This document shows, in pieces, positions 55,110-64,000 of a stretch of DNA of 64,000 bases; within the stretch, counting starts at the first letter, position 1, and each line of letters begins with the position of its first letter. The position numbers were made by a program, and so were the translations under genes. This DNA comes from Methanosarcina barkeri MS (GTDB taxonomy: Archaea; Halobacteriota; Methanosarcinia; Methanosarcinales; Methanosarcinaceae). Where the stretch lies: the NCBI RefSeq assembly GCF_000970025.1, contig NZ_CP009528.1:1723168-1787167 (forward strand). The letters are read 5' to 3'. The notes beneath the pieces are model-generated. The model was not told the origin of the DNA, searched no databases, and worked only from the letters and a program-made list of their open reading frames with translations.

Positions 55110-56248
55110 TAGGACTTACGCAGTTAAAATGCCGAAAACTTGATATCTTTATAAATATACTTATGGCTTAGTGTTTCTCTAAAAACGTACGGAGTTATGG
55201 ACATAAATCCACCTAAGTGTACCGACATTGACTACATTAATTTTCTCATTGCGGCTTCTAACGTTTTTAGCTGTACTGAAGCTGCTAGATGTTATCCAGA
55301 CATAGCTAATGCTCCTTCTCATGATGCTTTTACTCGTTGCCTTCAAAGGCAACCTCCAGACACGGAAGCACTATGGGAGGAAGTAAAAAGTTATGTCAAG
55401 CTTAAGGGAGGATACCTAATTGTTGATGATTCAACATTAGATAAACCATACGCAGAAGAAATTGCTTTTGTTCGTCGTATGTGGAGTGGAAAACATCATC
55501 GTACTGTAAAGGGAATAGGCCTGGTTACCTTAGTTTGGACTGACGGTACAACCGTTATACCTATCGATTTTCGAATTTATAACATCGATGTAGACGACAA
55601 AACAAAGAATGACCATTTCCGTGATATGCTTGACAAGGCCGAAGAACGTGGTTTTAATCCCAAATTCGTTTTATTTGATACATGGTATGCAAGTGTGAAA
55701 AACCTTAAAGCCATTAGACAGAAAGAGTGGCATTTCCTTACAAGATTGAAAAATAATCGTTTGGTAAATCCTGACAACAAGGGAAATGTGCCACTTGAAA
55801 CAGTAGATATTCCTCCAAAAGGACGTGTGGTTCACCTCAAAGCATATGGATTTGTAAAGGTGTTTAGGATAGTTTCAAAAAATGGAGACACGCAACACTG
55901 GGTTACAGATGTGCAAGAGATGGATGAAGCAAAACGTGAAGATTTGGCAAAGAAGTCATGGAAAATTGAGGAATATCATAGGGGAATAAAACAGTTCTGT
56001 GGTGTCGAAAAATGTCAGGCAAGAAAGGAAGAATCACAAAGAGCACATATAATGTTCTCATTAAGAGCTTTTCTTAGACTGGAATTACAAAGAATCAAAA
56101 GTGGAATATCCTGGTTTGAAAGTGCTATGAAAATTAGAAGAGTGGCAGTGACAGAATACTTAAGGAATCCCCAATACACGTTAAATTAATTCAAATATTT
56201 GAAAGTTTGGAAAAAACAATATGCTAGGAGCCAACTGCGTAACTCCTA
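55110..56248 (+). mobile_element. Intact insertion sequence, 1139 bp, with target duplication
   Basis: TAGGACTTACGCAGTT at 55110-55125 is inverted at 56233-56248 with 15 of 16 matches. AGTAC flanks both ends (55105-55109 and 56249-56253), a 5-bp target duplication. One complete transposase ORF lies inside. The well-preserved ends and duplication point to a recent insertion. Confidence 0.9.
55197..56189 (+). CDS. IS4-superfamily DDE transposase
   Basis: 330 residues. LIVDDSTLDKPYAE carries the first catalytic Asp, ILFDTWYAS-like VLFDTWYAS the second, and WKIEEYHRGIKQFCGVEKCQAR the Glu of the Y-R-E-K type signature. The N-terminal helical region (CTEAARCY, HDAFTRCL) probably binds the ends. 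The ORF has no stops or frameshifts, so the element may be active. ATG start 87 bases inside the left end. It is distinct from the decayed element at 20657. Confidence 0.9.
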   Translation: MDINPPKCTDIDYINFLIAASNVFSCTEAARCYPDIANAPSHDAFTRCLQRQPPDTEALWEEVKSYVKLKGGYLIVDDSTLDKPYAEEIAFVRRMWSGKHHRTVKGIGLVTLVWTDGTTVIPIDFRIYNIDVDDKTKNDHFRDMLDKAEERGFNPKFVLFDTWYASVKNLKAIRQKEWHFLTRLKNNRLVNPDNKGNVPLETVDIPPKGRVVHLKAYGFVKVFRIVSKNGDTQHWVTDVQEMDEAKREDLAKKSWKIEEYHRGIKQFCGVEKCQARKEESQRAHIMFSLRAFLRLELQRIKSGISWFESAMKIRRVAVTEYLRNPQYTLN

Positions 56249-56445: not shown

Positions 56446-57000
56446 ATGGCAAATATGAATAAATTAGTTATACTATTGGTTCTCTTTGCGGCTGTGATCT
56501 TAGCAGCTGGCTGTATTAATAGTAAGACAAATGTCACGAATCCTCAGGATGCCCAGGAAAATTCTATAAATTCTCAGGAGATGCAGGAAAATTCCACGAA
56601 TTCTCAGGAAACACAGGAAAACAGTACTGTTGTAGAAATTACCCAACTGGATCAGATAAATACATCTCTCAAAAAAGGACCTGTTCTTTTGAAACTCGGA
56701 GCTGAGTGGTGTGAAGAGTGCCAGGAGTTAAACCCTGTTCTGGCTCAGGTTGCAACAGATTATGCAGGTAGAGCCACAGTTATGACCATAGATATAGATA
56801 AAAGTAAGAACCTTGCTAATTACTTTGGAATATATGTAATCCCTGACTCTTCTGTAATTATGGGCATTGAAAACGGGAAATATGTTTATATGCAGGAGGA
56901 TGGGAACGTTACTACTGAAAGATCAACGGCCAGGATTCTAAAAATAGAGGGTAAAGAAGTATACGAAAATGTACTGGATTTAGCTCTTCAGAAAGAATAA
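56446..57000 (+). CDS. Thioredoxin-like lipoprotein (CEEC)
   Basis: 184 residues. Signal peptide with lipobox LAAGC (Cys 23), then a Gln/Asn/Ser-rich linker with three imperfect copies of NSQEXQENS (about 31-61), then a thioredoxin domain with WCEEC (C89, C92), the DIDKSKN strand and IPDSSVIMGIENGKYVYMQE. It is a paralogue of the protein at 25877 (same IPDS and GIENG-YVYMQE segments) but with two acidic residues between the cysteines and a longer linker. It is probably a membrane-anchored thiol oxidoreductase outside the cell. The IS lies about 200 bases upstream. Confidence 0.9.
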   Translation: MANMNKLVILLVLFAAVILAAGCINSKTNVTNPQDAQENSINSQEMQENSTNSQETQENSTVVEITQLDQINTSLKKGPVLLKLGAEWCEECQELNPVLAQVATDYAGRATVMTIDIDKSKNLANYFGIYVIPDSSVIMGIENGKYVYMQEDGNVTTERSTARILKIEGKEVYENVLDLALQKE

Positions 57001-57040
57001 AATTAAATCTAATTATTTTACAGCCAAAACGTATTTCTTT

Positions 57041-57140
57041 TTTCTTTTTAAATCCAGCGTATTCTTTTTAAATCCAGCGTATTCTTTTTAAATCCAGCGT
57101 ATTCTTTTTAAATCCAGCGTATTCTTTTTAAATCCAGCGT
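57041..57140. repeat. 20-bp tandem repeat, 5 copies
   Basis: The unit ATTCTTTTTAAATCCAGCGT is repeated exactly from 57061 to 57140, with a first copy at 57041 differing by one base. It lies in the 398-base gap between the lipoprotein and the convergent radical SAM gene. Confidence 0.95.
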
Positions 57141-57398: not shown

Positions 57399-59324
57399 TT
57401 ACTGTGGTTTGACTCCTTTCCTATCATCCTTTGAGCTTGATATTAAGGCTGGCAGGATGTTAAAAGGTTGAATAATCTCATTGTCGAAATTTTTAGTAGA
57501 GCCCTGCTTTGGCATCTCCATTTTGAGGTCATTATACAGTGTTTGTGTGTGTGGCCAAATACCAGAAGAAGGCCTGTGAAAAGACCTGTTAGGTCTTGCT
57601 TCCTTAAACCGCATACCATAAAACTGTAGATAAAAATCATCTGCTTCCTTTTTCAGGTCAACTTCAAGTTTTCCGGGATGCAACTTGTCTGCTATATACA
57701 TTAGTCCCAATATCCAGCGAGGGCTTCCAAAATCCCAGGAAGGCGGAATTTCATAGACCCTATGCTGCGTCACAGCATCGACATGTATTTCATATTTCTG
57801 GCACAGGGCATAGAACTCATCGAGAGGACGAGAAAGGAAACCGGAGACAAAAATAACCCCAGGATTGTGCTCATTGATAAAGGAAGGGGAAACACTTACA
57901 CCCAGTTTACCTTCCTTTTGAAGCTGCTTATTGATACTCACACCACCGGAAAATGTCACAAGGTTATTTTCCATTCTGCCGGCATTCAGGGCAAAGAAAG
58001 GAGAGCCCATGCAATAATACACATAATAACTACTTTTTCCTGCTGAAAGATTCTGGACAATTTTCAAGCGCTTATGAATGAAAGAAACAAGTTCTTCTCC
58101 TTTTTTCGGCATATTAGCTTTTTCAGCAATAAACCTGATGAACTCCAGATAAGAGTACGGCTGACGTATCATATAATGTATTTGTGTAAGGGTTTTGGGG
58201 TTTGAGACCTTACTCCAGACATCCATTAATTTATCCTCACCCCAGATATCCATTAGTTTATAATCGTCCAGTACTCCCAGGCATGTAAGTACTGCATGAA
58301 CCATACTGAAAGCCTGGCTTATACTGTAACTGTCTATTAAGCCTGCTTCACTGAAACCTTCAGTGGAAGCTTTACCCTGAACTGGAATGCTGTAACCGCA
58401 GCTACATTTGTGACTTACCCAGGGTTTTACAAGCCTGGAGCCAAAAGGCCTGTAAAATTCCCGCTCTATCAGGAGATTGCCACATTCAGGACAGTATGTG
58501 TTTAATAGTTTCGTGCCTGGCGAATTAAAGAGGTAGACAAAATCCAGATATCTGTGCAGGGCAGAACAAATTTTTTCCGCTTCTCCCACTGATGGCTCCA
58601 GTTCTATCGGGGCATAGCCGAAGGGCAGGAATCTCATGACATGCAACGGAATAGTAGAAGAGATATCAGATACTGCCTCTGCGACTTTTATAACATCATC
58701 TTCATTTCCCTTTGAATAAGCAACTGAAGTTTCAACATGCACTCCCATGTCAAAAAGTCTGGAAATGTTGCGAAAAACAGGAGTTGATGAAGTAACTCCA
58801 CAATTTTTATAACCTCTGTCAGAATAACCTTTAATTCCCACGTTCACAAAATCAACAAGCTGTCCAAACTCTTCTAAAGTTTCACTTGTAAAATAGCAGT
58901 TGGTTGAACAACCTACAAGTAAATTTTTTTCCTGTGCCTGTACTGCAAGGTCCCTGAAAAGATAGTAATTGGCAACAGGATCATTTATTGCTGAAACTAC
59001 GCCCAGGCACTCTTGTTGTAAGACCCTTTTCACTATTTCGGATGGACTGAGTGAGGATTGTTGGGACGGAGGTCTACTTGATGCTGGCATCCGTGCCATA
59101 CAACCAGGACACTGAAAATTACATCCTGTACTGAAAATTTGCAGGAACTTGCCTGAAGGATAAAAATGATGTAAAGGGACTGCTTCTATTGAAATTGGAT
59201 ATGCTCCCAGATATCCCATACCGGGGTACTGGGTTATTTTATTGCCAGTGCTTACATAAGTGCCACATCTGCCCATACTATGCTTATTGATTTCGCACCT
59301 GACTTCGCATATATTGCATTGCAT
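57399..59324 (-). CDS. Radical SAM protein with C-terminal solute-binding-like domain
   Basis: 641 residues. The N-terminus has an extra Cys group (C3, C6, C10, C20). The radical SAM motif is CNFQCPGC (C68, C72, C75), in the class related to pyruvate formate-lyase activators and AmmeMemoRadiSam proteins. A zinc-ribbon-like set CPEC and CSC follows near residues 260-310. The last 200 residues resemble the second lobe of BtuF/TroA-type binding proteins: INEHNPGVIFVSGF, VYEIPPSWDFGSPRWILGL, LHPGKLEVDLKKE and FYLQFYGM. No signal peptide is present, so the whole is cytoplasmic. It is divergent from vnfH, suggesting but not proving a nitrogenase-linked job. ATG start with strong GGAGG. Confidence 0.85.
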   Translation of the reverse strand: MQCNICEVRCEINKHSMGRCGTYVSTGNKITQYPGMGYLGAYPISIEAVPLHHFYPSGKFLQIFSTGCNFQCPGCMARMPASSRPPSQQSSLSPSEIVKRVLQQECLGVVSAINDPVANYYLFRDLAVQAQEKNLLVGCSTNCYFTSETLEEFGQLVDFVNVGIKGYSDRGYKNCGVTSSTPVFRNISRLFDMGVHVETSVAYSKGNEDDVIKVAEAVSDISSTIPLHVMRFLPFGYAPIELEPSVGEAEKICSALHRYLDFVYLFNSPGTKLLNTYCPECGNLLIEREFYRPFGSRLVKPWVSHKCSCGYSIPVQGKASTEGFSEAGLIDSYSISQAFSMVHAVLTCLGVLDDYKLMDIWGEDKLMDVWSKVSNPKTLTQIHYMIRQPYSYLEFIRFIAEKANMPKKGEELVSFIHKRLKIVQNLSAGKSSYYVYYCMGSPFFALNAGRMENNLVTFSGGVSINKQLQKEGKLGVSVSPSFINEHNPGVIFVSGFLSRPLDEFYALCQKYEIHVDAVTQHRVYEIPPSWDFGSPRWILGLMYIADKLHPGKLEVDLKKEADDFYLQFYGMRFKEARPNRSFHRPSSGIWPHTQTLYNDLKMEMPKQGSTKNFDNEIIQPFNILPALISSSKDDRKGVKPQ

Positions 59325-61104
<1,780 letters not shown>

Positions 61105-61121: not shown

Positions 61122-61439
61122 ATGAAGATGGTCCGTGCCATATTACGTCCTGAATGGACTGAAGAAGTAACCGACGGACTCGCAGAAGCCGGTTATTACT
61201 CCCTTACAAAAATAAACGTTTTCGGAAGAGGGAAACAAAAAGGGATCACTGTTGGGGATGTGCACTACGATGAACTCGCAAAAACAATGATCATGATGGC
61301 TGTAGAAGACGAGGCTGTTGACAAGGTGATTAAAATAATTTCCGGAAAAGCATACACAGGCAACATGGGAGACGGAAAAATCTTTGTGAATACGATTGAA
61401 GCTGCATACACAATTAGTTCGGGTGAAAAAGGGTTATAA
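61122..61439 (+). CDS. nifI1: PII-family nitrogenase regulator NifI1 type
   Basis: 105 residues. It begins MKMVRAILRPEW and has GRGKQKGITVGDVHYDEL in the T-loop region and the C-terminal GDGKIFVNTIEAAYTISSGE of PII proteins. In methanogens NifI1 and NifI2 form a complex that blocks dinitrogenase when ammonia is present and is relieved by 2-oxoglutarate and ATP. Placement between H and D is diagnostic. It lies 17 bases after vnfH with an AGGAGA Shine-Dalgarno sequence. The T-loop lacks the Tyr of uridylylated GlnB. Confidence 0.93.
   Translation: MKMVRAILRPEWTEEVTDGLAEAGYYSLTKINVFGRGKQKGITVGDVHYDELAKTMIMMAVEDEAVDKVIKIISGKAYTGNMGDGKIFVNTIEAAYTISSGEKGL

Positions 61440-61486: not shown

Positions 61487-64000
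<2,514 letters not shown>

Follow-up and report, generated by a model that had tools for sequence, protein, structure and literature searches.

A radical SAM enzyme fused to a FecB-type binding lobe: a candidate processing component of ModE-controlled molybdenum and tungsten acquisition, with a paralogue beside the vanadium nitrogenase genes of Methanosarcina barkeri

Several described systems resemble one part or another of the locus analysed here, which lies in a stretch of 64,000 nucleotides of the Methanosarcina barkeri MS chromosome (hereafter the window) and encodes an AmrS-like radical SAM enzyme fused to a binding-protein lobe. In Haemophilus influenzae, molybdate is imported by MolBC-A, a BtuCDF-like system (PMC4031551). 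The usual operon of the fusion likewise combines a FecB-type binding protein, a FecCD-type permease and an ATPase, and has a putative link to molybdate. To our knowledge, MolBCA has no radical SAM or methyltransferase partner. Binding proteins of the FecB/BtuF/MolA type (PF01497) share with the C-terminal half of the fusion its backbone helix and second lobe, with Z-scores of 20.1 for 4hn9 and 17.7 for MolA (3psa). Unlike them, the fusion has no signal peptide, is predicted to be cytoplasmic, is joined to an enzyme and, in its model, has a first lobe of helices only.

The N-terminal half aligns over its entire length with AmrS (AmmeMemoRadiSam, TIGR04337) and has the same N-terminal four-cysteine motif, CX3CX2C motif and C-terminal ribbon. 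It differs from AmrS in its score of 98.7 bits, below the family cut-off of 220, in the additional C-terminal lobe and in its setting among ABC importer genes. NifB, too, is a radical SAM enzyme encoded beside nitrogenase genes, whereas the fusion has no match to a NifB family in NCBIfam up to an E-value of 1 and most of its homologues lie away from nitrogenase. Finally, the ModE regulon of Escherichia coli is a counterpart on the level of control: the half-sites and the 8-bp spacing of the modA site recur at the loci described below, and M. barkeri encodes a protein with a ModE-like helix-turn-helix (HTH) and a Mop domain. The archaeal protein, however, stays below the ModE_repress cut-off, and the putative archaeal regulon takes in vnf, anf, fmd/fwd and the fusion operon.

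The two halves of the fusion protein

The fusion gene (57399..59324, minus strand) is an intact open reading frame of 641 amino acids, with an ATG start preceded by a GGGAGG ribosome-binding site, and has homologues in other genomes. Its radical SAM half (residues 1-311; 58392..59324, minus strand) is delimited by the match to TIGR04337, which covers residues 1-307, and by alignment with the AmrS of the same genome, the product of a separate AmrS-like gene (G000:C2:1821353); identity to the AmrS proteins of relatives is about 28-32%. The first-pass annotation of the window, made from the letters alone, had pointed to a CX3CX2C motif and two extra cysteine groups in this half, and both observations hold. 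The motif corresponds to C68/C72/C75, conserved in 62-63 of 64 homologues. The extra groups are C3/C6/C10/C20, an N-terminal CX2CX3CX9C, and C278/C281/C307/C309, a C-terminal CX2C...CXC ribbon; each of their cysteines is kept in 62 to 64 of the 64 homologues, and both groups prove to be AmrS features when AmrS sequences from this genome and its relatives are aligned. Membership in the radical SAM superfamily follows from PF04055 (Radical_SAM; 45.5 bits against a cut-off of 29.5, E = 1.2e-11), while the score of the second copy of the fusion in this genome, the operon copy, in TIGR04337 (86.4 bits) is likewise below the family cut-off. The protein starts directly with the cysteine motif (MQCNICEVRC); no export signal is found at the N-terminus, in accordance with the earlier reading, and hydropathy peaks inside the protein (1.53 at residue 334).

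The C-terminal half (residues 312-592; 57549..58391, minus strand) was assigned to a cytoplasmic FecB/BtuF-type domain by profile searches, Pfam, an AlphaFold2 model and structure matches, all of which agree with the second-lobe assignment first proposed from the motifs NPGVIFVSGF, VYEIPPSW, GSPRWILGL and LHPGKL, each present in the translation. On the window copy itself Pfam Peripla_BP_2 reaches an E-value of 0.006, under the family cut-off, and PF01497 is matched by 41 of 48 homologues. A single-sequence search of the PDB retrieved binding proteins at 2e-5 and a profile of 48 sequences at 5.9e-17, the profile matches beginning near the backbone helix and extending through the second lobe. 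Modelled from 48 diverse homologues, residues 312-592 reached a pLDDT of 85.7 and a pTM of 0.85; a full-length prediction from 17 close homologues was unusable (pLDDT 48). The structure comparison suggested by the first-pass annotation returned a binding-protein fold, with 4hn9, annotated as iron-binding, as the best match (Foldseek 3.9e-9; Z 20.1 over 223 residues), and YiuA, CeuE and the molybdate-related FecB-type protein MolA of H. influenzae as further ones. Backbone helix and second lobe are canonical in the model, which places the domain in the FecB/BtuF type. Two alpha/beta lobes, however, are not seen: since the model has no strands before its residue 123, the predicted first lobe is shortened and built of helices alone.

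Among plasmid records the two halves turned up only separately, as AmrS proteins on the one hand and ABC binding proteins on the other, the pattern expected of a fusion. In one genome (G369:C1:19689-21429) the gene is split into two overlapping reading frames at the domain border, which suggests that the halves are separable. Neither the fusion nor its putative molybdenum control was found described in the open-access literature. The joining of a cytoplasmic binding-protein lobe to a radical SAM enzyme, suspected from the start to be a new arrangement, is real and, as far as could be found, previously undescribed.

Gene neighbourhood and ModE-type operators

In Methanosarcinaceae the fusion is usually the middle gene of five co-directional genes, in the order exported FecB-type binding protein, SAM methyltransferase, fusion, FecCD permease and ABC ATPase, and this synteny extends across genera. 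In Methanomicrobia the methyltransferase adjoins the fusion in many loci and ABC genes are near in some. Most loci carry transporter subunits of the FecBCD type, and Mod-type subunits were seen in two. One locus, in a distant methanogen (L096, genome G339), reads modA, modB, WtpC/ModC-like ATPase, methyltransferase and fusion, all co-directional, with ModA and ModB scoring above their curated cut-offs; this is the single genome in which linkage to modA/modB was seen directly. In the other (L076:5156-7228, genome G169) the first operon gene is an in-frame fusion of ModA with a FecB-type protein, its ModA domain exceeding the TIGR01256 cut-off, although this locus, on a draft contig, has to be read with care. 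Nitrogenase genes are not adjacent to most homologues in the phylum and second-class surveys, and the operon form is retained in genomes without alternative nitrogenase.

Alignment of the intergenic regions between the fusion and vnfH from six genomes brought out a conserved dyad, GTTATGT-N8-ACATAAC, of which the window has three copies between the two genes. In the motif scan operator 1 (GTTATGTCTATTATTACATATC, 59575..59596) and operator 3 (GTTATGTTTAGTTGAACATACC, 60011..60032) have one mismatch each; operator 2 (GTTGTGACTATTTATACATAAC, 59701..59722; two mismatches) is the dyad conserved in all six vnf genomes. The E. coli modA promoter carries GTTATATTGTCGCCTACATAAC at a distance of 20 bases ahead of modA, one mismatch away from this pattern, and we take it to be the characterised ModE site. 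An NrpR-type operator, GGAA-N6-TTCC, was considered as a common element and set aside, as it occurs between the genes in only one of the six vnf genomes.

The same pattern marks the operons. With at most two mismatches, an operator lies within 200 bp of the first operon gene in 30 of 32 Methanosarcinaceae loci, against an expectation of 0.0013 per locus, and mostly 43-46 bp upstream of the start codon; positive offsets in a few loci probably come from the use of the longest reading-frame start. No operator of the strict form was found in the Methanomicrobia loci of the fusion, and control there is therefore different. Genome-wide, M. barkeri has 25 sites with at most two mismatches, little above the 18 of the reversed control, and thus only the better-matching sites are informative. 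Within the vnf locus these lie in the fusion/vnfH region and at the promoter from which the FecCD permease and binding-protein genes diverge; elsewhere they lie at the start of the second-fusion operon, at modA, in the mod/formylmethanofuran dehydrogenase region, at a second FecB-type binding protein and at the fmdE-fwdF-fwdA cluster. For one site (3314367) no connection to molybdenum is apparent. In genome G015 the pattern occurs 21 times with at most one mismatch and never in the reversed control; among these sites are those at fmdE, modA, fwdD, a WtpA-like gene and anf and vnf genes. The candidate regulator of M. barkeri scores 63.7 bits with its HTH in TIGR00637 (ModE_repress; cut-off 98.5) and 63.9 bits with its Mop domain in TIGR00638, above the cut-off of 55; a ModE-type HTH was matched in all eight genomes examined. 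As a separate observation, the operator-bearing fmdE-fwdF-fwdA cluster has as its neighbour another gene for a FecB-type binding protein (G000:C2:472324-474334, locus L152), which is likewise preceded by a ModE-type operator.

Distribution and the vnf-linked paralogue

Under strict thresholds, the fusion is matched in 35 of the 238 genomes surveyed from the window's own class, in 67 of 232 of a second class (that of G327) and in 52 of 393 of a sample of the phylum. Nearly all of these matches cover both halves, and a few in the phylum and second-class scans are partial or confined to the radical SAM half. A scan of genome contigs with restrictive patterns matched Methanosarcinaceae only, and the viral contigs searched held no relatives. 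In-frame stops were reported in some relatives of the phylum and second-class scans; those of three loci (L086-L088 in g20), where the called reading frames have 581 amino acids, were put down to alignments that run past the ordinary terminator close to their end. Methanomicrobia have a second subfamily of the fusion (L098, L106, L110, L112, L113, L114), whose C-terminal half is about 21-26% identical to that of the window; two divergent subfamilies are adjacent in G459, G369 and G593 (loci L106/L108), and in L098 NifD/NifK-type genes lie a few kb from the fusion.

The genome of M. barkeri MS contains two copies of the fusion, and the copy in the window was described early on as divergent from a vnf operon. 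This is confirmed by the neighbouring genes, all on the plus strand: vnfH (60259..61104; TIGR01287, 456 bits), which faces the fusion across the common control region, is followed by the nifI1-type (61122..61439) and nifI2-type (61487..61858) PII genes, both assigned by family clusters common to vnf loci, by vnfD (61879..63276; TIGR01860 VNFD, 1006.9 bits against a cut-off of 823.1, with ANFD below its own cut-off), by vnfG (63273..63611, likely ATG start at 63273; TIGR02930, 168.7 bits against 141.7, and PF03139) and by vnfK (63631..64000), which continues past the window end (TIGR02932, 906.5 bits on L021:15799-17181 against 873.95). VnfD, VnfG and VnfK thus exceed their NCBIfam cut-offs and beat the Anf models, and the nitrogenase is of the vanadium type.

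Within the window's class, ten genomes carry genes of the AnfG/VnfG family. Six of these, all Methanosarcina, have a vnf-type locus (G000, G002, G014, G015, G017, G175), and every one of the six has a fusion copy beside it and has also kept the operon copy. The linked copy is divergent from vnfH in five; in G015 its divergent neighbour is a nifH-type gene situated some 9 kb from vnfH. Two further Methanosarcina genomes, of the anf type by score (G011, G020), lack a copy linked to nitrogenase. In f7, two genomes with VnfG/AnfG-type genes (G220, G222) yielded no strong match to the fusion, and alternative nitrogenase is therefore not universally dependent on it. In the tree the vnf-linked copies group together as a single clade (support 100/99), apart from the operon copies. 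From this monophyly and the retained operon copy, the vnf linkage is read as a duplication within Methanosarcina, with the linked copy a derived paralogue retained together with vnf. Alignment of the two kinds of copies also delimits a C-terminal tail (residues 593-641; 57402..57548, minus strand), which is found in the vnf-linked copies of related species and missing from the operon copies and from the vnf copy of G015.

Around the linked copy some features were recorded in their own right. A lipoprotein-like reading frame with a CEEC thioredoxin-like motif (56446-57000) is conserved beside the vnf-linked fusion in related genomes. At 57036-57140 a 20-bp unit, TATTCTTTTTAAATCCAGCG, is repeated about five times in tandem, as judged by eye. 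At 59350-59400 a stretch of about 21 bp, AGCTAGAGTCATCCTGAACTA, is directly duplicated; of the six vnf control regions that were aligned, only the one from this genome shows it. A reading frame of 330 amino acids (55197-56189) looks like a transposase by eye and is missing from the syntenic loci of relatives. Downstream of the window, the vnf island (L022, G000:C2:1790001-1810000; likewise L157 in G015) contains an exported FecB-type protein within the string of vnf genes, an aconitase-small-subunit-like gene, two adjacent genes that resemble, by eye, a split homocitrate synthase, and a divergent FecCD/ATPase and binding-protein pair with two ModE-type operators between them.

A candidate role in metal acquisition

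Operators at 30 of the 32 operons, together with the modA/modB linkage in L096, make molybdenum-type control and transport the common denominator of the family, and regulation and neighbourhood together assign it to molybdenum/tungsten acquisition; that it belongs to a molybdenum/tungsten regulon is, we think, very probable. From its position opposite vnfH the first-pass annotation had suggested a role in metal or cofactor handling for vanadium nitrogenase. Its metal side is favoured by these operators and this linkage; its vnf specificity is not, because most homologues have no adjoining nitrogenase and the operon form exists without alternative nitrogenase. The neighbourhood survey itself gives the same divided answer, with a linked copy at all six Methanosarcina vnf loci and most homologues elsewhere without a nitrogenase neighbour. 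On balance, and with modest confidence, we favour the reading that the fusion is a cytoplasmic processing component of ModE-controlled molybdenum/tungsten acquisition, and that the paralogue in the window was recruited to vnf, most likely for vanadium. Whether the vnf-linked paralogue indeed serves vanadium seems to us an even question, the preference for vanadium over molybdenum being drawn from distribution.

Under this reading, molybdenum shortage would cause ModE to leave the promoters, and the transporter would take in complexed metal, as a chelate or thio-anion and not as the plain oxyanion. The complex would then be bound in the cytoplasm by the fused lobe, which is best explained as a receptor for an imported complex since it is intracellular, sits on a radical SAM enzyme and is encoded with an importer. 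The radical SAM domain, with the help of the methyltransferase, would alter or cleave the ligand, thereby passing the metal to cofactor assembly; the two enzymes may share this ligand as substrate. The vnf-linked copy, presumably expressed without molybdenum, would handle vanadium. That the ligand is processed by radical SAM chemistry is put forward tentatively and by analogy, and removal of the ligand from the imported metal complex as the preferred reaction is our guess.

The same genes could instead build a chelator: radical SAM enzyme and methyltransferase would make a metallophore, the lobe would hold the product or its metal complex, and the FecBCD-type importer would retrieve the loaded metallophore. 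The adjacency of methyltransferase and radical SAM genes in most loci is like that of biosynthetic clusters, chelates are the usual cargo of such importers and ModE-type control would fit equally well; yet the conserved operon, with its closely abutting genes, includes no precursor peptide, ligase or exporter, and a ligase-like reading frame (cluster c10, by eye) lies beside it in some Methanosarcina only, which makes this reading fairly unlikely. A protein maturase or chaperone, whose lobe would bind molybdenum, tungsten, vanadium or a cluster while the radical SAM half modified a partner or cofactor precursor, for example of formylmethanofuran dehydrogenase or nitrogenase, would agree with the co-regulation with fmd/fwd and vnf, and nitrogenase cofactor scaffolds belong to the same fold superfamily. 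There is also a weak similarity to TIGR04317, the radical SAM maturase family of tungsten enzymes (E-values of 1e-5 to 1.4e-7), but the scores of 24.9 and 31 bits are far from the cut-off of 380. The gene moreover accompanies transporter genes, not target enzymes, in most loci, and the fusion is missing from many genomes both of the genus and of the class, so that we regard a maturase as clearly unlikely.

Two further readings fare worse. A factor dedicated to vanadium nitrogenase alone, for metal or cofactor handling, would account for the linked copy at every Methanosarcina vnf locus, its absence from anf-only genomes and the single clade of linked copies; it is very unlikely given that the family is far wider than vnf, that each vnf genome also keeps the operon copy and that G220 and G222 are without a strong match. 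An ordinary accessory of iron, haem or corrinoid uptake, incidentally repressed by molybdenum, is suggested by the FecB/BtuF domain and the FecCD permease, both of which are common in iron and B12 uptake, and by the iron-binding annotation of 4hn9. Iron, haem, nickel and corrinoid complexes are also among the ligands of FecB-type domains, which counts against a molybdenum/tungsten reading. Nevertheless, ModE-type operators at nearly every Methanosarcinaceae operon and linkage to modA/modB would be unexpected for iron or B12, and we hold such an accessory to be highly improbable.

In a more far-reaching form of the preferred reading, which we consider possible if doubtful, methanogens would import molybdenum, tungsten and vanadium as thio-anions or with a metallophore through FecBCD-type transporters, the lobe-bearing radical SAM enzyme would unload them, and the vnf paralogue would have become vanadium-specific by duplication. 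If true, this would be an undescribed anaerobic, radical-based step of metal acquisition. Methanosarcina acetivorans is genetically tractable. The entry of vanadium into archaeal cells and the supply of molybdenum and tungsten in sulfidic, anoxic habitats are poorly known, and the fusion system offers a concrete candidate: a radical SAM enzyme tied by its control region and neighbours to molybdenum/tungsten homeostasis, with one branch of the family also tied to vanadium nitrogenase. The system further suggests that a binding-protein lobe can find a second use within cells, as the substrate receptor of an enzyme.
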